This document shows, piece by piece, positions 62 to 7,455 of a DNA stretch of 7,455 bases. The notes under the pieces were generated by a model that saw nothing but the letters and a program-made list of their open reading frames with translations, searched no databases and was not told the origin of the DNA. Every line of letters starts with the position of its first letter. The first letter of the stretch is position 1. Source of the stretch: Opitutaceae bacterium. GTDB lineage: Bacteria; Verrucomicrobiota; Verrucomicrobiae; Opitutales; Opitutaceae. The DNA is taken from the NCBI GenBank assembly GCA_031266495.1, contig JAISAX010000378.1, positions 1 through 7,455 of the forward strand. Reading direction: 5' to 3'. The position numbers were made by a program, and so were the translations under genes.

Positions 62-102
62 GCGTGTGTGGGTGTGTATGTGTGGCCGGGGGGGGGGGGG
101 GG
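62..102 (-). repeat. Poly-C plus CA-rich composite element (left copy)
   Basis: Read on the minus strand, this is 15 C (102-88), then GGCC, then a CA-rich stretch ending in CACACACGCC. It lies downstream of the PEP-CTERM gene stop and upstream of a possible next leftward start. The same order of C-run then CA tract, in the same sense relative to the genes, recurs at 1983-2013 and 5117-5158. The 72-84 part alternates purine and pyrimidine. A run of this length is likely to vary in length by replication slippage and is also prone to sequencing error. Confidence 0.8.
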
Positions 103-112
103 AAGGGAGAGA

Positions 113-227
113 GGCAGACGGGTTCAACGACGGCGGGCGTGTGGGGGGGTCGGGGGGGGGCGCGCCCGCCGGCCCCCCCCCCCCCCCCGGCAGAGACGCA
201 CACTGGGTCAACGACGGCAGGCGTGAG
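113..227. repeat. Imperfect direct repeat spanning the 3' end of the PEP-CTERM gene
   Basis: Positions 121-143 and 205-227 match at 20 of 23 bases and share the core TCAACGACGGC, with a period of 84 bp. The similarity continues weakly to the left, with GGCAGACG at 113-120 against GGCAGAGACG at 189-198. The right copy contains the stop codon and last codons of the PEP-CTERM gene. The left copy is non-coding. Between the copies lie a 7-G run, a 9-G run and a 16-C run. The simplest reading is a local duplication of the gene's 3' end, followed by expansion of the homopolymers. Confidence 0.75.
152..188 (-). terminator. Very GC-rich potential hairpin after the PEP-CTERM gene
   Basis: Nine G (152-160) and sixteen C (173-188) on the plus strand are separated by 12 bases. 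A transcript leaving the leftward gene could fold them into a G/C-only stem 20 nt past the stop codon. The loop region holds two further palindromes, GGGCGCGCCC (158-167) and GCCGGC (169-174). No U-tract follows, so it is not a canonical intrinsic terminator. It could block 3' exonucleases, pause polymerase, or simply be a by-product of homopolymer expansion. Confidence 0.3.
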
Positions 228-1848
228 TGCGAGGGCGAAGGCGAATACGAATACGAAGGCCAATGAGGAGAGCGGCAATGGCTGCGACAATGAGGGTGTG
301 GCAGGCCGGTTCGGGAATGGCGGCGGCGGAGGTAACAACAAGGTTGAGCTTGTTCGCGGTGGTGTCCCAGCGGAGATTGTAGTCGAAACCCGCAGGGAGA
401 TTGCCGCCAAGGGTGATGCCGTTGTTGGTGGCGACGCCGCCGGCGAAACTGAGGAGTTCGTAGGTGCCCGCTCCGAATCCGGATAGCGCGGTGATGTTGA
501 CCGTGCCGGCAAGAGTGAGGTCGCCGCCAGTGATGCTGATGTGGTCATGGCCGGAAGGGGCGGCGGACGTTCCGAGGTCGAAGGCCAGGTGCGAACCGGT
601 GTCCAGGACAAGCCCGGCGGTGAACGCGAGTGTGCCGGTTTCGCTGTTGCCGGCGGCATTGATGTCACCGGCGGAGAGTGTGGCTCCGGCGGCGAGCGTG
701 GTGGCGCGGTGAATGGCGCCTTTGCCTCCGAGCGTGGCGCCGGTTGCGACAGTCACGACCGCATCGCCAGCGGCGGCGGCGGCAAGCGTGCCGTTGACGA
801 GGAATGTGCCCGCCGTGATTTGAGTGGTTCCCTTGTACGTATGGGTGACGCCGCTTGTCGCGTTGAGTGCAACAATGCCTTCGCCGGTTTTGGCGATGCT
901 TCCGAGACCTGTGCTGGTATCGGTGATACTGCCGGTGATGTTGACCCGGCCTCCCGCGGCGGCAGTGAGGTTGAGGGTCACGTCAGTGGCGGTGCTGGCG
1001 AGCTGGATGTTTTTAAAGGAAGAGGTGTGCGCGGAGTTTCCGCCGAGGGTGTAGGTGTGGGCTGTGCCGCTGGAGCCTCCGGAAGTGATGGTATTGAGGT
1101 TGATCTGGTTGGTGATGGCAACGGCGGCTTCCGTGAGAATGGCGATGTCCATGGCATTTCCCGCGGAGAGGCCGAGCTGGACAGTACGGTCCGTGCCAAA
1201 TGCCTTGTCGGCGCGGACTAGCACGGTGCCATTCCGGATACGGGAGGGCGCATTGTAGGTGTTTTGTTTTTCGATGATGATGTCCCCGCCAAACTCGACA
1301 ATGGAACCTGTGCCGCTGATCTCTCCGGCAAGAGTGATCGCCCGGGTGCTGCCAATGGAGCGGAAATAGACGCCAACATTTTCGGAACCGTCGATGGCGA
1401 TGGCGCCGAGTTTGACGGGGCCTGAGTTGGCGGAAAAGCGCGTCGAATTGAGCAAACGGATACCGGCGTTGATGGTGAGAAGATTGCCGGAATTATTGGC
1501 GACGGCATCCGTCTCGATCCCCTTGCCATAAATGGAGAGGGTATTTCCGTTGCCACTACTATTGATGGTGAATGCCCCGGCGCCACTGTTGACCGCGAGG
1601 GTGTTGAGCGTGAAGTCGGTGTCCAGTTCGATGGTGGTGCGGGTGGTGCCACCAAGGGAAATGGCGGTGTCGTTCGCGCTGGCGAGGGTGGCGGGATCGT
1701 CGGTCCAGTTGGCGGTGTCGGTCCAGTTGGCGGTGGTGGTGCTGCCTCCATCCCATGTGTAGGCTTCGGCGGCGAAAAGGCGCGCGGCGGTGGCAGTGAT
1801 GAGGAGGAGCGGAGGCAGGGTGATGCGGGTTGCTTTGGCGATGTTCAT
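208..1848 (-). CDS. PEP-CTERM-anchored protein with autotransporter-associated beta-strand repeat
   Basis: A predicted exported, surface-type protein of 546 residues. Residues 1-29 look like a signal peptide, with a basic n-region, a hydrophobic LPPLLLITATAA core and likely cleavage near LFA-AEA. The mature part is low in Cys and rich in Gly, Thr, Ser and Ala, in repeated short strands. Residues 316-354 (GSIAKTGEGIVAL, then TYKGTT and AGTFLVNGTL) match the autotransporter-associated beta-strand repeat pattern. The C-terminus is a PEP-CTERM sorting signal: PEP at 512-514, a hydrophobic span at about 517-531, then an Arg-rich tail. Family knowledge says such tails are recognised and processed by exosortase, often in exopolysaccharide-producing bacteria. 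No exosortase lies in the window. No catalytic motif is visible, so a matrix, adhesin or structural role is the best guess. The ATG at 1848 precedes a good signal peptide but has no clear Shine-Dalgarno sequence. The basic tail is longer than usual and is encoded by a hexamer repeat. Confidence 0.88.
   Translation of the reverse strand: MNIAKATRITLPPLLLITATAARLFAAEAYTWDGGSTTTANWTDTANWTDDPATLASANDTAISLGGTTRTTIELDTDFTLNTLAVNSGAGAFTINSSGNGNTLSIYGKGIETDAVANNSGNLLTINAGIRLLNSTRFSANSGPVKLGAIAIDGSENVGVYFRSIGSTRAITLAGEISGTGSIVEFGGDIIIEKQNTYNAPSRIRNGTVLVRADKAFGTDRTVQLGLSAGNAMDIAILTEAAVAITNQINLNTITSGGSSGTAHTYTLGGNSAHTSSFKNIQLASTATDVTLNLTAAAGGRVNITGSITDTSTGLGSIAKTGEGIVALNATSGVTHTYKGTTQITAGTFLVNGTLAAAAAGDAVVTVATGATLGGKGAIHRATTLAAGATLSAGDINAAGNSETGTLAFTAGLVLDTGSHLAFDLGTSAAPSGHDHISITGGDLTLAGTVNITALSGFGAGTYELLSFAGGVATNNGITLGGNLPAGFDYNLRWDTTANKLNLVVTSAAAIPEPACHTLIVAAIAALLIGLRIRIRLRPRTHACRR
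234..263 (-). repeat. Hexamer tandem repeat encoding the Arg-rich tail
   Basis: Five 6-bp units on the plus strand (GGCGAA, GGCGAA, TACGAA, TACGAA, GGCCAA) lie inside the PEP-CTERM gene. On the coding strand they give alternating hydrophobic residues and Arg, ending in IRIRLRPR just after the membrane span. Gain or loss of a unit keeps the frame and adds or removes two residues of the basic cluster. Confidence 0.75.
1701..1736 (-). repeat. 18-bp tandem duplication in the PEP-CTERM gene
   Basis: Positions 1701-1718 and 1719-1736 differ at only one base (17 of 18 match). They encode two copies of a WTDTAN-like hexapeptide near residues 42-50 (NWTDTANWTDD), soon after the signal peptide. The duplication is in frame. 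It looks like a recent slippage event in the mature N-terminus. Confidence 0.85.
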
Positions 1849-1890
1849 GGCGGTTGTTTGTAATCAGGTTTCGGATACTAACGGAAGTGA

Positions 1891-2046
1891 GGCTGGGGGA
1901 GGGCAGGGGAGGGGGGGAGGGAACGGGAATGAAGCGGAAAACTGGATATATAGAAGGGAGGGAAAAAGAAAAACTGGCGCAGATACGCGTGTGTGTGTGG
2001 GGGGGGGGGGGGGAGGGGAGAGGTGAGGAGAAGGGAGGGAGAGGCG
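1891..2046 (-). other. C-rich, G-poor spacer between regulator and PEP-CTERM gene, with poly-C/CA element
   Basis: On the leftward coding strand this spacer has 87 C against 11 G in 156 nt. It holds a 15-C run (2013-1999, starting 33 nt past the regulator stop) followed directly by an (AC)5 tract. The alternating purine-pyrimidine stretch covers 1983-1999. A transcript of this region would be long, unstructured and C-rich, which is what Rho factor prefers to load on (established for Rho; the application here is inference). The rest of the spacer to 1848 shows no clear gene or hairpin. Confidence 0.75.
1947..1952 (-). promoter_or_regulatory. Candidate -10 element for the PEP-CTERM gene
   Basis: TATATA on the minus strand is the most AT-rich point of the 198-bp spacer upstream of the PEP-CTERM start. 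It would give a leader of roughly 90-100 nt. No convincing -35 hexamer lies at standard spacing, only T-rich sequence, so the call is weak. If it is real, the PEP-CTERM gene is transcribed separately from the regulator. Confidence 0.25.
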
Positions 2047-3231
2047 TCAGCCGGAGCTGTCGCGCACGACGAGTTCGCCGCGAAGGAGAATATCGGGCGA
2101 GGCGACGGGCGTGTCGCCGAGGAGGCCGTCGAGGAGTTCAAAGGAGCGTTCGCCCATTTGCTCGAAAGGGATGCGATAGGTGGTGAGCGGGACGGGAGCG
2201 GTGGCTGCGACCGCGAAGTCGTCGATACCCGCGACCTTGAGATCACGGGGAACGTCGCGGCCGAGCGCGCGGGCGGCGCGAATCATGCCGACGGCGAGGA
2301 AATCGTTGGAGCACACAACGCCTTCGACATCGGGGTGGCGCTGGAGGTAAAGGCGGGCCATGCGTTCGGGTTCGGCAAGCGGGTCGCCGAAGTCGGGCTG
2401 CATCTCGGCGTCGCGATGCGCAAGAGCGGCGGCGGTGTCGGCCAGTCCGGCTTGCTCCATGGCGTGCGCGTAGCCGGTGTGCTTGGCTTGGGCGACGGGG
2501 ACCCAGGCGTGGTTGGCGAGGAAGCCGATTTTGCGCAGGCCTTTTTCGAGGAGGTGGCGCGTCAGGGTGTAGCCGGCATGGAAGCCGTCGAGGTCAACAC
2601 AGGGGCGGCGCATGGCGCTCATGCTCATGGTGACGAGCACGACGGGGAAACGGCAGGCGAGGAGCATCTGCGCGTAGTAAACGTAGTCCCTGGGGGAGAG
2701 GACGACGGGGAAAAGGACGGCGCCTTTCACATCAAATTCGACAAGGCGGCCAACGGCCTCCGCTTCGCGCCGGAAGTCGGTGCCGGTGGAGAGCATGAGC
2801 GTCTGCCGCCGGGCGCGATGGGCGGCGGACTGGAAGCCGGCCATAATACGGCGGACGCCTTCGTGCTGGTCGCTCGGGTAGATGAAAGCGCAGGCGTCAA
2901 GGGAAAGCGGGGCGGGTGCGGGGACGCCGGTCTTGCCGGGCGTGGCGGTGGCGCGGAGGACGCGGGTGCCGGCGCGCGTCTTGCGCTCCACCCAACCCTC
3001 GTGCGCGAGCCAGGCGAGCGCCTTGCCAACGGTGGAGCGGCCACATTCGAGTTCGTCGGCGAGTTCTGTCTCGGTGGGGATTTGCGTGCCCACGGGCCAG
3101 ATACCGCTCGTGATGCGATTTTCCAGAATGTCGTAAACCGCCTTCAGCTTGGTCTGGCTGGCGGGCGATGCGAATGCGGAAGGAGCATCCGGTGAAGCGG
3201 TGGTGGCGGCGGTGGCGGCGTCAGGCGTCAT
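2047..3231 (-). CDS. GntR-type winged-helix / LacI-type sensor transcriptional regulator
   Basis: A 394-residue DNA-binding regulator. Residues 27-93 form a GntR-family winged helix, with LKAVYDILENRITSGIWPVG leading in and the helix-turn-helix at about 54-79 (ELADELECGRSTVGKAL). A Pro/Ala/Thr linker follows. From about 110 to the end lies a LacI/periplasmic-binding-protein sensor domain with the hallmarks VEGVVCSNDFLAVG (302-315) and VAGIDDFA (333-340). This architecture is that of AraR-like regulators, which bind sugars and usually repress divergent or neighbouring catabolic genes. The ATG at 3231 was chosen because the winged helix starts soon after it. A TTG at 3291 would add 20 unremarkable residues, and neither start has a clear Shine-Dalgarno sequence. 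The gene is divergent from the beta-helix/dehydrogenase operon, so control of that operon and of itself is the natural inference. The effector is unknown. Confidence 0.9.
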   Translation of the reverse strand: MTPDAATAATTASPDAPSAFASPASQTKLKAVYDILENRITSGIWPVGTQIPTETELADELECGRSTVGKALAWLAHEGWVERKTRAGTRVLRATATPGKTGVPAPAPLSLDACAFIYPSDQHEGVRRIMAGFQSAAHRARRQTLMLSTGTDFRREAEAVGRLVEFDVKGAVLFPVVLSPRDYVYYAQMLLACRFPVVLVTMSMSAMRRPCVDLDGFHAGYTLTRHLLEKGLRKIGFLANHAWVPVAQAKHTGYAHAMEQAGLADTAAALAHRDAEMQPDFGDPLAEPERMARLYLQRHPDVEGVVCSNDFLAVGMIRAARALGRDVPRDLKVAGIDDFAVAATAPVPLTTYRIPFEQMGERSFELLDGLLGDTPVASPDILLRGELVVRDSSG

Positions 3232-3297
3232 GGAGCAAAAGGCGAAACGGCAGGCGAAAGAGAGGCGAGCGCTGGTTGATTTGCCACACAAAACATC

Positions 3298-3322
3298 TTT
3301 TGTTTGTCCGGAACAAGCAAAA
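3298..3322. promoter_or_regulatory. Candidate operator 1: 25-bp palindrome with TTGT-N5-ACAA core
   Basis: An odd-length palindrome centred on 3310. Ten of 12 base pairs match between the arms TTTTGTTTGTCC and GAACAAGCAAAA, which flank a central G. The core is TTGT-CCGGA-ACAA. It lies between the two possible regulator starts and the rightward gene, where an autoregulatory and divergent operator is expected. GntR-headed regulators bind palindromes as dimers. From memory, Bacillus AraR sites have similar TTGT...ACAA arms. The assignment to this regulator is inference. Confidence 0.6.
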
Positions 3323-3352
3323 AATATGAAAAACCAGTTGGTAAAACATAAC

Positions 3353-3365
3353 TTGTTTATTACAA
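3353..3365. promoter_or_regulatory. Candidate operator 2: TTGT-N5-ACAA inverted repeat
   Basis: TTGT-TTATT-ACAA, with the same arms and the same 5-bp spacer as the core of the palindrome at 3304-3316. The two centres are 49 bp apart. The flanks are not symmetric, so alone it would be weak. Its likeness to the first site makes a two-operator, possibly looping, arrangement plausible. Confidence 0.45.
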
Positions 3366-3465
3366 AATAATTCTGCTTGTAAAAATCATAAATTATCCGG
3401 ATTTCCGATGTTTTTTCAGGCAGGGAATATTTATTTTCGCTTGATTTGTTACGTGAAATAAAATT

Positions 3466-3469
3466 GGAG
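3466..3469 (+). promoter_or_regulatory. Shine-Dalgarno site of the beta-helix gene
   Basis: GGAG lies six bases before the ATG at 3476 and supports that start over the internal Met17. It is the only clear Shine-Dalgarno site among the starts in this window. Confidence 0.7.
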
Positions 3470-3475
3470 TGAGAA

Positions 3476-5101
3476 ATGGTCCAGCAAAAATACCTCGATC
3501 ACCAAAACCGGAATCTTGTTTCCATGACGGCCGCTCTCGCCCTGGTCTTTCTTCCCGGACTTGTTCCGGCCAGGAGTATTGCTGCGGTGGATACGACTGA
3601 TACGGTGGATACGGCGGATACGATCATTCCCGAACACGGCAAATACACCCCGGCCTACATGAGCGACTGGGCAAAACTGCCCACCGGCGACAAAATCCCG
3701 CGAAGGAACGCGGCGGACATCGAATTCGAAACGGTGACGGGAGAATCGGCGCGCAAGGAATGGGCGCATCAGGAAAAAGTTCACCTGGCCGATCTCCGGC
3801 TGCGAGTAGCGTGGGACGCGAAGAAGAGTAACAAGAAAAACACTACACTGTTTCACGTCCTTGATTGCAAGGAGGTCATTATCGAGAATCTGGCGATTAT
3901 CCAGGGCGACCCCGATTTTCGCGGCTACCACACCATTTCCGTCGAGGGCGCGGATCGCGTGATCATCCGCAACCTCTACCTGGCCGGCACGGTGCAGTCG
4001 CATCACCTGCGCCTCGAAGGCTGCAAGGACATCCTCATCGACAATGTCGAAATCGCCGGCATCGATTATGTCGGCAATGGCAAGACGCGCGCGGGCGGCG
4101 GCATCTGGATCAACAACGGCGCCACGGGCACGGCCTCCTCGCCGATGGGCCTCACGGGACTCTGGATGCCGCCCGGACATGTCCGCCTGCCAGGCTGGCA
4201 GATCGTGCAAAACTGCTGGTTTCACGACGCCCTGGAAAGCGACGGCGGCGACTGGCGCAACCAGGACGCGCTCCTCATCCATCATCCGGGCAACGGAGCG
4301 CTCTTCAATTGTGTAGTGGAAAACTGGTTTCACCCGTCGATGGACGGCGGCTTCGATCTCTCCTACCGGCGCGCCGAACCGGAGTATCAGGACAGGTTTT
4401 TCCGCATCGAGCGCAACATCGTGCGCAACGTGACGTTTGGCACAAAAACCCCGGGGTATTCGCCCGGTCCCAACGTGCTGTTTTTCGCCAACAACCTGTT
4501 CGTCAATTCCCTGCTTGCCGAGTACCACAACGGCGCGGCGAACGACACGTATTACGTTCACAACACCTACATTTACGATACGGACCAGGCGCCTCCCGCC
4601 CTGCGCGACATGGCGTTGCGAGGTTCATCGGGTTACGCGAGCCTGTGGAGTTACCGGGCGCTTTCCGTGCTCTCCAACTCGCTGCTCTACAAACCCGCCG
4701 GCCAGTTCACCCTGTTTTATGGCAACCACATGGGCGAGCCGGACAAATACCTGTATCTGAAACACGATTACAACGTCTATGCCCTCGGTTCCGCGAACCC
4801 CGTCTGGTACCGGAATTTCAGTGACGGCGTGAAATTCAGGACCCTGGACGACTGGCGCAAGGCCACCGGGACGGACGGGCACAGCGCGCTCGTGAACGCG
4901 AGCGCCGTGCAATTCGTCGAGTATGCGAAAAGCGACTACCGTCTGCGCGCCAACCCCGCGCCCTCGCCGGAAACCCTCACCACGCGCTACCTGAAACCTT
5001 CCGACGCCCGAATGCGTGTGGACCGCGATTTTTATGGAAAACCACGAAGCGACTCCGGCACGGCGGGCCTGTCACCGGGAGCATTTTGCGTGGAAAAATA
5101 G
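3476..5101 (+). CDS. Secreted right-handed parallel beta-helix protein, probable glycan-active
   Basis: A protein of 541 residues. Residues 1-37 look like a signal peptide, with a long polar n-region, the hydrophobic core MTAALALVFLPGLV at 17-30 and cleavage near SIAA. From about 125 to 430 there are repeated short-strand coils typical of a right-handed beta-helix, for example CKEVIIENLAIIQG (131-144), RVIIRNLYLAG (161-171) and KDILIDNVEIAG (184-195). An Asn/His-rich middle follows (FHDALESDGGDW; NCVVENWFHPSMDGG). The C-terminal part has DYNVY (431-435), a DDWRKATGTDGHS segment (458-470) and VDRDFYGKPR...GLSPGAF (515-537). These elements are common at the ends of lyase-like beta-helix proteins. 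The fold is shared by polysaccharide lyases, some glycoside hydrolases and epimerases. The catalytic residues cannot be assigned by eye, so lyase activity is inference. It heads the rightward operon, 102 bp before an oxidoreductase. A 9-bp tandem repeat follows the signal peptide. Confidence 0.85.
   Translation: MVQQKYLDHQNRNLVSMTAALALVFLPGLVPARSIAAVDTTDTVDTADTIIPEHGKYTPAYMSDWAKLPTGDKIPRRNAADIEFETVTGESARKEWAHQEKVHLADLRLRVAWDAKKSNKKNTTLFHVLDCKEVIIENLAIIQGDPDFRGYHTISVEGADRVIIRNLYLAGTVQSHHLRLEGCKDILIDNVEIAGIDYVGNGKTRAGGGIWINNGATGTASSPMGLTGLWMPPGHVRLPGWQIVQNCWFHDALESDGGDWRNQDALLIHHPGNGALFNCVVENWFHPSMDGGFDLSYRRAEPEYQDRFFRIERNIVRNVTFGTKTPGYSPGPNVLFFANNLFVNSLLAEYHNGAANDTYYVHNTYIYDTDQAPPALRDMALRGSSGYASLWSYRALSVLSNSLLYKPAGQFTLFYGNHMGEPDKYLYLKHDYNVYALGSANPVWYRNFSDGVKFRTLDDWRKATGTDGHSALVNASAVQFVEYAKSDYRLRANPAPSPETLTTRYLKPSDARMRVDRDFYGKPRSDSGTAGLSPGAFCVEK
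3587..3622 (+). repeat. 9-bp tandem repeat encoding a VDT/TDT/ADT linker
   Basis: Four 9-bp units (GTGGATACG, ACTGATACG, GTGGATACG, GCGGATACG) encode VDTTDTVDTADT, residues 38-49 of the beta-helix protein, right after the predicted signal peptide. They form an acidic, Thr-rich spacer. Changes in unit number would keep the frame. Confidence 0.85.
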
Positions 5102-5203
5102 CGCGCAATCCTCCGTCCCCCCCCCCCAACACACACACATGCGCGCATACACACACGCCATGACGCAACCTTTCACGCACACTCTCTTGTCTCCGCAACA
5201 TCC
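5102..5203 (+). other. C-rich spacer with poly-C/CA element and alternating purine-pyrimidine tract
   Basis: This 102-nt spacer has 50 C against 12 G. Eleven C (5117-5127) start 15 nt after the stop codon. A 30-bp stretch (5129-5158) then alternates purine and pyrimidine without a break: AC repeats, the perfect palindrome ATGCGCGCAT (5139-5148), then AC repeats again. Such tracts can adopt left-handed Z-DNA under negative supercoiling (established for CA/GC alternation). No Shine-Dalgarno site precedes the next start, and there is no intrinsic terminator, so read-through into the next gene is possible. Confidence 0.8.
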
Positions 5204-6190
5204 ATGAAAATCGCCATCATCGGAACCGGCAACGTAGCCACCGGAAATTATCTGCCCTGGTTCACCGCCCAAACCGGCATCCAGATCGGATGTCTTGACC
5301 AGAACACCGCCCGCGCCCAGGCCGCGGCGGAAAAATCCGGAGGACGCGCCTTCGCCACGTCCGCCGAACTCATCGCGTGGAAGCCCGACGCCGCCTTCGT
5401 GCTCACCAACGAAATGTGGCACTACGACGCCGGCCTCCCGCTCCTCCAGGCCGGTCTGCCGCGCGTGCTCTTTGAAAAACCGCTCGTCGCCGCCAGGGGA
5501 CAGGCGCACGTCAGCGAAGCCGATTTTTTCCAGGGCAGGGAATTGCTCGAAATCGCGGCGCGAACCGGCTCCGAAGTGGCGATGCTTTTCAATTACCGCT
5601 TCTTCGACCAGACAATCGCCGCCCGCCGCATCGTGGCTGAACGCGATTTCGGAGAACTCGTCAACGTGTCGGGGACAATCCACTACGCCTGCTGGAGCCA
5701 TTGCATCGACCTCGTCCATCACTTCGGCGGAGGCGCCGCCACGCTCGCCGCGCTCGAAGGCGCGCCCGAACGCGAGGGCCAGGACATCGTCGCCCGCGAT
5801 GTCGTCGCCGCCTTCACTCTTGAAAACGGCGCCACCGGCACGCTCGTCGGCACCGCGGGGTTGAAATGGCAACATCCGCTTTTCGAACTGATCCTTGCTT
5901 TCGAACGCGGGCGCCTCCACATGCGCGACATTGACGGGGATCTGGAAATCCTTGACGGAGCCTCCAGTATCCATGAACGTATCACAACGGTCCGGGACGC
6001 GTCACGCTGGCAGCACTACACCGCCTCGTTCCACAAGGCGCTGACCGCCTACCTCGACGCCGTTCGCGCCGGGAAGCCCGCCCCTGTTTCAGGGACGGAC
6101 GGCTTGCGCGAGTTGCAATTCGAAGCCGCGCTGCGCCGTTCCATCGCCGAAAAACGCCCCGTCGAAATCGCGCGGGAATTCCCCCTGTAA
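5204..6190 (+). CDS. Gfo/Idh/MocA-family NAD(P)-dependent oxidoreductase
   Basis: A 328-residue cytoplasmic dehydrogenase, a normal length for the family. The N-terminal Rossmann fold starts at once with MKIAIIGTGNVA (GxGxxx at 7-12). An Asp32 after the second strand suggests NAD rather than NADP. The conserved E-K-P is at 91-93, with Lys92 as the expected catalytic lysine. NYRF is at 130-133. The second-domain motif is HCIDLVHHFGG at 166-176, where Asp169 and His173 have the D-x3-H spacing of the Asp/His pair in inositol dehydrogenases. Family members oxidise or reduce a hydroxyl or keto group on sugars, inositols or amino sugars. The substrate here is unknown. The ATG at 5204 lies just before the Rossmann strand and has no Shine-Dalgarno site. 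The neighbours suggest it handles a product of the beta-helix enzyme together with the downstream dehydrogenase. Confidence 0.92.
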   Translation: MKIAIIGTGNVATGNYLPWFTAQTGIQIGCLDQNTARAQAAAEKSGGRAFATSAELIAWKPDAAFVLTNEMWHYDAGLPLLQAGLPRVLFEKPLVAARGQAHVSEADFFQGRELLEIAARTGSEVAMLFNYRFFDQTIAARRIVAERDFGELVNVSGTIHYACWSHCIDLVHHFGGGAATLAALEGAPEREGQDIVARDVVAAFTLENGATGTLVGTAGLKWQHPLFELILAFERGRLHMRDIDGDLEILDGASSIHERITTVRDASRWQHYTASFHKALTAYLDAVRAGKPAPVSGTDGLRELQFEAALRRSIAEKRPVEIAREFPL

Positions 6191-6272
6191 ATCTCCCGCG
6201 CCATTCCTGTCTCGCCTCCCCCCCCCCCCCCGCCCGCCTCTCGCGCCCTCCCGCCTGCACTCTCTTTTACCT
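6191..6272 (+). other. C-rich spacer with 14-C run before the dehydrogenase gene
   Basis: This 82-nt spacer has 49 C, 19 T, 10 G and only 4 A. Fourteen C lie at 6218-6231, starting 28 nt after the stop codon. It has no CA tract, unlike the other three poly-C spacers. No Shine-Dalgarno site is seen before the ATG at 6273, where the preceding bases are TCTTTTACCT. There is no hairpin or U-tract that would end transcription between the two dehydrogenase genes. Confidence 0.8.
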
Positions 6273-7337
6273 ATGAAAATCCTCCACCAGACCGGCAACT
6301 CCCGCGTTGCCATCGAAGACGTTCCCATGCTTGCGCCCGGCCCAGGCGAAGTCCTTATCAAGACCGCCGTATCCGCCCTCTGCGGCAGCGAAATGCCGAC
6401 CTTCCGCGGCAAGGACGGACGCCCTTACGGCAACCTCGGCCACGAAGCCGCGGGCGTGGTTGTGGCGTTCGGCCCCGGAGCCGGCGACATCACCAGCCCC
6501 GTCACGCGCGCGCCGCTCGAAATCGGCGACCGCGTCGGCGTCAGCGCCATCGCCGGCTGGCCGGGCGAAAACCCGTCCGTATCTGATCCGCATTACATCG
6601 CGGGACGCTACACGTGGTGCGACAAGTTCACCTTTCACTGCGACATGCACGCCGACTATTTCACGATCCCCGCGCAAGCCTGCCATGTGTTGCCCGACGA
6701 CATCCCGTGGGACATCGGCGTGCTCATCACCGGTGACGGACTCGGCGTCCCTTATCACACCTCGACCAAACTCGCCGCGCTGCCCGGTCCGGTCGGGCAA
6801 CAGACGGTTGTCATTTTCGGACTCGGCCCCATCGGCCTTGGCAACGTCCTCATGCAGACGCATCTCGGGCGGCGGGTAATCGGGGTTGATCGCGCACCCG
6901 GCCGCCTCGAACTCGCCCGCCGGCTCGGAGCCGCGCACACCATTGATGCCGGTAGCGCCACCAATGCTACCGACATCCCTGCCGCCGTCAAAAAACTGAC
7001 CAACAACACCGGTGCGGATATTGCCATTGAATCCGCCGGAGTGCCGGCCACTGCGCGTCTCTGTTTTGCGTCGGTGCGCAAGGGAGGCACCGTCCTTTTC
7101 AACGGCGAACAACCCGCGCTCGAACTTTCGCCCAGCGAGGATTTCATCCGTCGTGACATCACCGCTACAGGCTCATGGTTTTATCATTTTTGCGAGTATC
7201 CCGACATGCTTGCCCATGCCCGCAATGGTCTGCCGGTTGCATCGCTCATCACGCATCGTTTTCCGCTTGCCGAGGCCGCCGGGGCGTATCACGTGATGCA
7301 ATCCGGACTGTCCGGCAAGGTGCTGCTGACTTACTGA
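6273..7337 (+). CDS. Zinc-type medium-chain dehydrogenase (alcohol/polyol dehydrogenase-like)
   Basis: A 354-residue member of the medium-chain dehydrogenase/reductase superfamily. The catalytic domain carries the expected zinc ligands Cys37 (LCGSE), His57-Glu58 (GHEAAG) and probably Asp155 (TGDGLG), where many relatives have Glu. The NAD-binding motif GLGPIG is at 183-188. Asp206 at the end of the next strand points to NAD over NADP. The four-cysteine structural-zinc lobe seen in classical members is missing. In its place is a segment (about 95-124) with only two Cys (116 and 123). The C-terminal catalytic part ends in the usual SGKVLLTY. Relatives oxidise sorbitol, threonine, sugar acids or similar alcohols. 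The substrate here is unknown. The ATG at 6273 sits two codons before the first strand, as is usual. It is the last gene of the rightward set. Confidence 0.92.
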   Translation: MKILHQTGNSRVAIEDVPMLAPGPGEVLIKTAVSALCGSEMPTFRGKDGRPYGNLGHEAAGVVVAFGPGAGDITSPVTRAPLEIGDRVGVSAIAGWPGENPSVSDPHYIAGRYTWCDKFTFHCDMHADYFTIPAQACHVLPDDIPWDIGVLITGDGLGVPYHTSTKLAALPGPVGQQTVVIFGLGPIGLGNVLMQTHLGRRVIGVDRAPGRLELARRLGAAHTIDAGSATNATDIPAAVKKLTNNTGADIAIESAGVPATARLCFASVRKGGTVLFNGEQPALELSPSEDFIRRDITATGSWFYHFCEYPDMLAHARNGLPVASLITHRFPLAEAAGAYHVMQSGLSGKVLLTY

Positions 7338-7358
7338 CTGACGTTACGCGGAACGGCC

Positions 7359-7455
7359 GTAGGGGCGTCGCTTGCGACGCCCGCGCCAGGCGGAGAGAAT
7401 TGGCGTATCTCCCGTTGCGAAAGGTCCTCGCGGGCTTCGCAAGCGAAGCCCCTAC
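7359..7455. repeat. Paired GC-rich palindromes in inverted orientation (REPIN/MITE-like), reaching the window edge
   Basis: Two 27-bp arms, 7359-7385 and 7429-7455, are inverted copies matching at 25 of 27 bases. Each starts from its outer side with GTAGGGGC. Each arm is itself a hairpin: GGGCGTCGC-TT-GCGACGCCC (7363-7382) and GGGCTTCGC-AA-GCGAAGCCC (7432-7451). The differences between the arms are compensatory within each hairpin, so both 9-bp stems are perfect. A short inner repeat, GGAGA (7392-7396) with TCTCC (7408-7412), lies between them. This is the layout of REP doublets and small non-autonomous elements. It sits 21 nt past the dehydrogenase stop and could also end transcription or protect the mRNA 3' end. 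The full boundary may lie outside the window. Confidence 0.85.

Follow-up and report, generated by a model that had tools for sequence, protein, structure and literature searches.

Long C tracts occupy the intergenic spacers of the 7,455-nt stretch of Opitutaceae DNA analyzed here (hereafter the window) and occur in large excess in Geminisphaera colitermitum TAV2, the nearest relative found, which carries them at several of the same sites, whereas its congener TAV5 lacks them there. On balance, we consider it probable that these runs are C tracts grown by replication slippage from C-rich seeds, and not copies of an element. Their preferred orientation appears to be mostly inherited from the composition of the spacers, and their concentration just past stop codons goes beyond what the seeds provide.

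Five genes were called in the window with our own dicodon script, their start positions being uncertain. The minus strand encodes a 546-aa protein (208–1848) without Pfam or NCBIfam matches at E 0.001, with a putative PEP-CTERM-like C-terminal end (judged by eye), and a regulator combining a GntR-type HTH with a LacI-type sugar-binding part (2047–3231). The plus strand encodes a 541-aa protein (3476–5101), likewise without Pfam or NCBIfam matches at E 0.001, a Gfo/Idh/MocA-type oxidoreductase (5204–6190) and a zinc-type (MDR) alcohol dehydrogenase family protein (6273–7337); the regulator and the last two proteins were assigned by family matches.

A run scan recovered all four runs listed in the first-pass annotation, at the positions given there and outside the five called genes. 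On the minus strand, a C15 at 88–102 (G15 on the plus strand) lies 105 nt past the stop of gene 208–1848, for which it reads C, and leads on the C strand into an AC-rich stretch (87–62); a second C15 (1999–2013) lies 33 nt past the stop of the regulator gene and is followed by (AC)5, seen as GT on the plus strand at 1989–1998. On the plus strand, a C11 (5117–5127) lies 15 nt past the stop of gene 3476–5101, with AC tracts next to it at 5129–5138 and 5149–5156, and a C14 (6218–6231) lies in the 82 nt that separate the Gfo/Idh-type gene from the MDR-type gene. The scan also detected an overlooked fifth run, a plus-strand C16 at 173–188, longer than any other in the window, which lies 19 nt past the stop of the minus-strand gene 208–1848. 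For that gene it reads G, contradicting the claim that the runs always read C in the direction of transcription. An ACACAC-type tract is located 3′ of three of the five window runs, and shorter runs share these spacers (G7 at 143–149, G9 at 152–160 and G7 at 1911–1917).

The chance origin of the window runs is ruled out by both a composition model, under which 0.03 runs of at least 11 nt are expected in the whole window, and shuffles of single spacers, in which the longest run of each spacer (C16 in the first) was matched in 2, 13, 73 and 36 of 5,000 trials. The earlier judgement that such runs are unexpected by chance even at high GC is thereby upheld, although it overstated their improbability because the spacers are themselves C-rich: in the sense direction, three of them contain 49–60% C and 8–12% G, and the first 46% C and 24% G. 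An intrinsic terminator reading was rejected, since a window scan for GC hairpins followed by a T tract gave six candidates where shuffles predict 8.0; all six lie on the minus strand, and none coincides with a run when read in sense. In the first spacer, G15 pairs with C16 as an 18-bp inverted repeat at 85–191 (arms 85–102 and 174–191, 100% complementary, 71 nt between them), and the RNA fold of minus-strand positions 210–75 has z = −3.6. A direct repeat (105–141 and 189–225; 37 nt, 84% identity, 84 nt apart) spans the stop region of gene 208–1848 and may be a trace of local duplication in this spacer.

Three of the four window sites have matching runs in the orthologous TAV2 spacers. Downstream of the orthologues of genes 208–1848, 2047–3231 and 3476–5101, TAV2 has a C10, a C15 and a C16 at 9, 8 and 18 nt past the stop, respectively, and after gene 3476–5101 the C-run is followed in the window and TAV2 alike by ACACACAC. 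In the spacer between the Gfo/Idh-type and MDR-type genes, the longest run is C14 in the window and C6 in both TAV2 and TAV5, where this spacer is short, C-rich and G-poor. None of the four orthologous spacers of TAV5 contains a run of at least 7 nt; in a TAV2–TAV5 comparison of 12 orthologous co-directional spacers, two have a TAV2 run of 14–15 nt and none has a TAV5 run longer than 6 nt. The Gfo/Idh protein is 85% identical between the window and TAV2, 83% between the window and TAV5 and 88% between TAV2 and TAV5, so the presence of runs in the window and TAV2 and their scarcity in TAV5 do not simply follow the kinship of this protein. Geminisphaera is a genus known from termite guts.

These comparisons bear on the possibility that the runs are sequencing or assembly artefacts. 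Such tracts do trouble sequencing, as 14 of 91 TAV2 contig ends lie near runs against 2.4% expected. However, the separate records of two species agree on the site and on the flanking AC tract, the orthologous TAV5 spacers have no run, and 115 of the 140 TAV2 runs with coding sequence on one strand on both sides keep the reading frame across the tract, a pattern that speaks for selection within genes and against mis-assembled tract lengths. An artefactual origin is thus very improbable. The frame differs in the other 25 cases, some of which may be separate genes; this test excluded 17 runs close to the ends of stretches.

Genome-wide counts all refer to relatives of the window, namely TAV2, TAV5 and others. 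TAV2 has 1,576 C/G runs of at least 10 nt (796 + 780), or 276 per Mb. TAV5 has 50, or about 7 per Mb, which makes a forty-fold difference. Both genomes belong to a draw of 100 from the family, in which the 99 genomes other than TAV2 have 0–81 such runs, with a median of 3 and 14 genomes having none. In a phylum-wide draw of 288 genomes TAV2 again ranks first, followed by one genome (G164) with 315 runs and the remainder with at most 67. C/G homopolymers of this length are therefore rare in nearly all genomes searched here, and the position of TAV2 at the top of both draws shows that the excess is lineage-specific. We found no account of such C tracts in Opitutaceae among the literature matches listed from a limited collection. 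The 315 runs of G164 are spread over 3.0 Mb, and in this genome, which encodes both MutS and MutL, the tracts (50 runs of at least 9 nt in 257 kb) are shorter, lie mostly in genes (31 of 50) and have G instead of T on their 5′ side; it is probably a different case, separate from that of TAV2.

The position and strand of the runs were analyzed in 1.48 of the about 5.7 Mb of TAV2, comprising 1,231 genes called with the same script; this sample includes contigs C59 and C180, picked for carrying window orthologues, of which C59 is run-rich, and leaves out nineteen contigs of 0.2–4.8 kb as well as the final 1.9 kb of contig C11. The 413 runs are distributed among genes (213), co-directional (134), divergent (30) and convergent (22) spacers, with 14 unclassified, 13 of them at stretch ends and one on a gene edge. 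Run density is 0.56–1.34 per kb in spacers, depending on their type, and 0.17 per kb in genes. Hence, two early observations, that runs avoid genes and that the divergent region lacks them, hold in the window, where no C/G run within a gene exceeds 5 nt, and do not extend to TAV2. The proposed genome-wide test for strand bias was positive, as 113 of the 134 co-directional runs read C in the sense direction and 21 read G (binomial p 2e-16). This is a strong bias, but the 21 G runs, like the C16 of the window, show that orientation is not constant. In TAV5, where 24 of the 50 runs were placed, co-directional runs divide into nine C and three G, and two convergent G runs were found.

It was suggested that the constant orientation might reflect a function in RNA. 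A dedicated RNA role is not supported by TAV2, since convergent and divergent spacers carry runs about as often as co-directional ones. Among spacers of 40–300 nt, a run was found in 97 of 454 co-directional, 14 of 82 convergent (Fisher p 0.46 versus co-directional) and 12 of 89 divergent spacers (p 0.11). Near stop codons, moreover, convergent spacers have five C and seven G runs, compared with 77 and nine in co-directional spacers (p 4e-4). Relative to 4–6-nt seeds, long runs are enriched less than 30 nt past the stop with odds ratios of 3.7 in short co-directional (p 4e-4), 5.5 in long co-directional (p 7e-8) and 6.8 in long convergent spacers (p 1e-3), so that proximity to stops is a general feature, whereas the C sense bias is confined to co-directional spacers. 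Within the latter, 81 of 134 TAV2 runs lie no more than 30 nt past the stop, against 49.6 ± 4.4 expected from random placement in their own spacers. Misannotated stops were dismissed as a cause of this hot zone, because the sequence itself fixes the stops and none occurs in a C tract. An account by tolerance alone is weakened by the middles of TAV2 convergent spacers, which are run-poor. The post-stop concentration in both co-directional and convergent spacers ties tract growth or survival to the end of translation.

The orientation of the runs largely reproduces that of shorter tracts. With runs of at least 7 nt masked, the sense C/G ratio of short co-directional spacers is 2.1 in TAV5 and 1.7 in TAV2, while convergent spacers are even in both genomes and the sequence past convergent stops in TAV2 has a masked ratio of 0.93–0.98; the length and some of the composition comparisons between the two genomes were made on the first 818 kb of TAV2 against 348 kb of TAV5. 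The C:G proportion of long TAV2 runs does not differ detectably from that of 6–8-nt tracts (Mantel–Haenszel odds ratio 1.28, z 0.7) and is somewhat more C-biased than that of 4–6-nt tracts (odds ratio 1.73, z 2.1), so that the outcome depends on which of the three length bins serves as seeds (odds ratios 1.73, 1.5 and 1.28). Within TAV2 genes, long runs (157:56) match 4–6-nt tracts (6158:2498; p 0.44). Since spacers C-rich and G-poor in the sense direction and C-biased short tracts are found in TAV5 as well, orientation is mostly inherited composition; the C sense bias therefore predates the expansion and is largely separate from it. Shine-Dalgarno-like 4-mers are scarce upstream of genes (14.5% in TAV2 and 16.4% in TAV5, against 8.9% and 7.7% in shuffled sequence), which fits the G-poor spacers. 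As for the strand-biased mutational process invoked in the first-pass annotation, a mutational origin is likely, although nothing in the data demands an intrinsic strand bias.

A different explanation for the post-stop zone is a mutational hot spot linked to transcription or translation. According to it, ribosomes leave the transcript at the stop, RNA polymerase stalls or R-loops form, and the exposed strand slips, with sense G being tolerated worse than sense C. Such a hot spot would explain why the 0–30-nt zone exceeds the seeds in both co-directional and convergent spacers, why the last 30 nt of genes hold only seven runs compared with the 81 in the first 30 nt past co-directional stops, and why the bias tracks net transcription, being present in co-directional and absent from convergent and divergent spacers. 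The same tendency is seen in TAV5, where seven of 12 co-directional runs lie within 30 nt past a stop; with far fewer runs in that genome, however, a hot spot alone is insufficient for the forty-fold difference. In addition, the C:G proportion of long runs within genes is no stronger than that of their seeds. We regard this explanation as rather unlikely.

A related proposal is that a sense C tract past the stop acts in RNA, loading Rho or another protein that ends transcription or separates neighbouring genes. Rho binds C-rich, G-poor RNA, with poly(C) as the classical cofactor. The post-stop RNA is C-rich and G-poor, as in rut sites and as expected of a Rho-type substrate; Rho scores above the cut-off in both TAV2 and TAV5; the first 30 nt of co-directional TAV2 spacers of 30–120 nt contain 50 sense C runs and a single G run; and a run with its AC tract occupies one and the same position in the window and in TAV2. 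Unlike rut sites, though, the runs are pure homopolymers, are missing from the TAV5 spacers and, in convergent spacers, where transcript ends are most needed and where sense placement would be expected of rut sites too, show no sense bias. They are also about equally common in short and long co-directional TAV2 spacers, one window run separates two genes that are adjacent in the window, TAV2 and TAV5 alike, and TAV5 mostly does without runs. This role is possible but disfavoured, and we give it a low probability. Similarly improbable is a broader version, in which the post-stop C tract, often with the AC tract after it, would constitute a genome-wide RNA or DNA signal within 30 nt past stops, with its length set by slippage, in a lineage that makes little use of Shine-Dalgarno sequences. 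If true, hundreds of gene junctions would carry a mutable knob for termination, re-initiation or polarity.

The tracts themselves show several further properties. In the first 818-kb sample of TAV2, C/G tract lengths are two-peaked, declining to 11–12 nt and rising to a second peak at 13–14 nt. Other simple tracts are raised to a lesser degree: A/T tracts of 8 nt occur at 56 per Mb in TAV2 and 14 in TAV5 (about four-fold), with longer A/T runs still rare, and (AC)4 tracts at 41.5 and 5.7 per Mb (about seven-fold). A T precedes C tracts of 3 nt in 27% of cases within genes and in 38% within spacers, and runs of at least 10 nt in 74–84% of cases. An ACACAC motif, one of seven motifs tried, is found within 45 nt 3′ of 18 of 187 TAV2 spacer C-runs and 5′ of two, against 1.7 expected, and CTCCTC is also raised on both sides (7 and 12 against 2.8 expected). 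A dispersed mobile or repeat element was considered and rejected, because the comparison of flanks for shared sequence beyond the run returned just the C-rich surroundings, the 5′ T and some downstream ACACAC, and the runs are thus not copies of an element.

The 213 TAV2 runs within called genes raise the possibility of phase variation, in which the tract length switches the host gene or its neighbour. Homopolymers at phase-variable loci of Neisseria, Campylobacter and Bordetella are likewise long and presumably slippage-prone C/G tracts, many of them genic; 41 C and two G runs fall within the first 120 nt of TAV2 genes, and long repeats are reported to correlate with host dependence (PMC4060949). 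Compared with those loci, the TAV2 tracts are far more numerous, sit in a 61% GC genome, show a strong post-stop excess and are mostly in frame within genes. Off states should consequently be uncommon, the gene number is too large for a classical contingency set, most co-directional runs follow stops instead of lying in promoters, and only a minority of the in-gene runs are 5′. Phase variation as a general explanation is hence doubtful, and we rate it as improbable. Some in-gene runs encode Pro or Gly stretches in variable loops and may mark slippage-sensitive genes. When nine in-gene TAV2 runs were aligned with their TAV5 homologues, three were located in loops of unchanged length and a fourth was off by one residue; the others had gaps nearby or lay beyond the end of the alignment. 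Runs without a change in length are not predicted by pure insertion.

The genome-wide length shift, with its milder rise of A/T and AC tracts, resembles microsatellite expansion in mismatch-repair-deficient lineages. It differs in that the C/G effect is by far the strongest, genes remain mostly in frame, and the TAV2 repair genes seem to be present: MutS is open across the family length and intact, and positions 1–333 of the 555 of MutL, its N-terminal half, are intact, with the remainder lying beyond the contig end and not recovered. The mutL gene is cut by the end of contig C11 shortly past a C9 tract in the linker. Of 51 genomes selected either for many runs or for large size with few runs, 46 have a MutS and 49 a MutL above the family cut-off. 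MutS was missed in G077 (51 runs; no match), G012 (34), G015 (37), G043 (20) and the run-free G057, and MutL in G100 (81 runs; no match) and again in G012. Most of these misses are run-rich (20–81 runs), which fits a link to repair; however, several are fragments at contig ends in fragmentary assemblies, and these, together with G057 and the intact MutS of TAV2, weigh against it. Loss of mismatch repair is therefore an unlikely general cause.

The slippage explanation is favoured by the TAV2 excess, the higher run density in spacers than in genes, the two-peaked lengths, the concomitant rise of A/T and AC tracts, the seed-like C:G proportions, the occurrence of runs in all spacer types, and the differing tract lengths in orthologous spacers. 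Under this scenario, co-directional spacers, being C-rich and G-poor in sense, would supply short C seeds in abundance and G seeds in smaller number. Beyond some length, the seeds of TAV2 and of the window species would grow to 10–20 nt, after a lineage-specific change in tract growth or removal. Within genes, selection would eliminate most of the resulting runs, leaving survivors that are mostly in frame, while in spacers the runs would persist and read C as their seeds did. The TAV2 excess, the two-peaked lengths, the orientation, the seed bias and the state of the orthologous sites are observed, whereas slippage itself, a threshold for growth and the lineage-specific change are inferred. 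The near-stop concentration beyond the seeds, the stronger C bias relative to 4–6-nt seeds and the one-sided ACACAC speak against it, as do the intact MutS and the N-terminal half of MutL in TAV2. Neither the AC tract nor the hot zone past stops is accounted for by slippage, and both leave room for a transcription- or translation-linked hot spot or for an RNA signal.

Tract biases with preferred positions have been described on a wide scale before. In the study of Orsi et al. (2010; PMC2831843), poly(A) and poly(T) tracts are over-represented in prokaryotic genes and prefer certain positions, which resembles the genome-wide and positional bias seen here, whereas poly(C) and poly(G) tracts longer than 2 nt are generally under-represented in the coding genes analyzed. 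Two congeners with 276 and about 7 runs per Mb offer a natural comparison for the control of tract length. If the in-gene tracts of TAV2 slip, 213 of which were counted in a quarter of the genome, the expression of many genes may change. Finally, the window ends with a dispersed repeat at 7356–7455, whose hairpin-like core starts at about gtaggggcgtcgcttgcgacgcc; dozens of matches with 70–100% identity were found in TAV2 and TAV5, and the repeat looks REP-like by eye.
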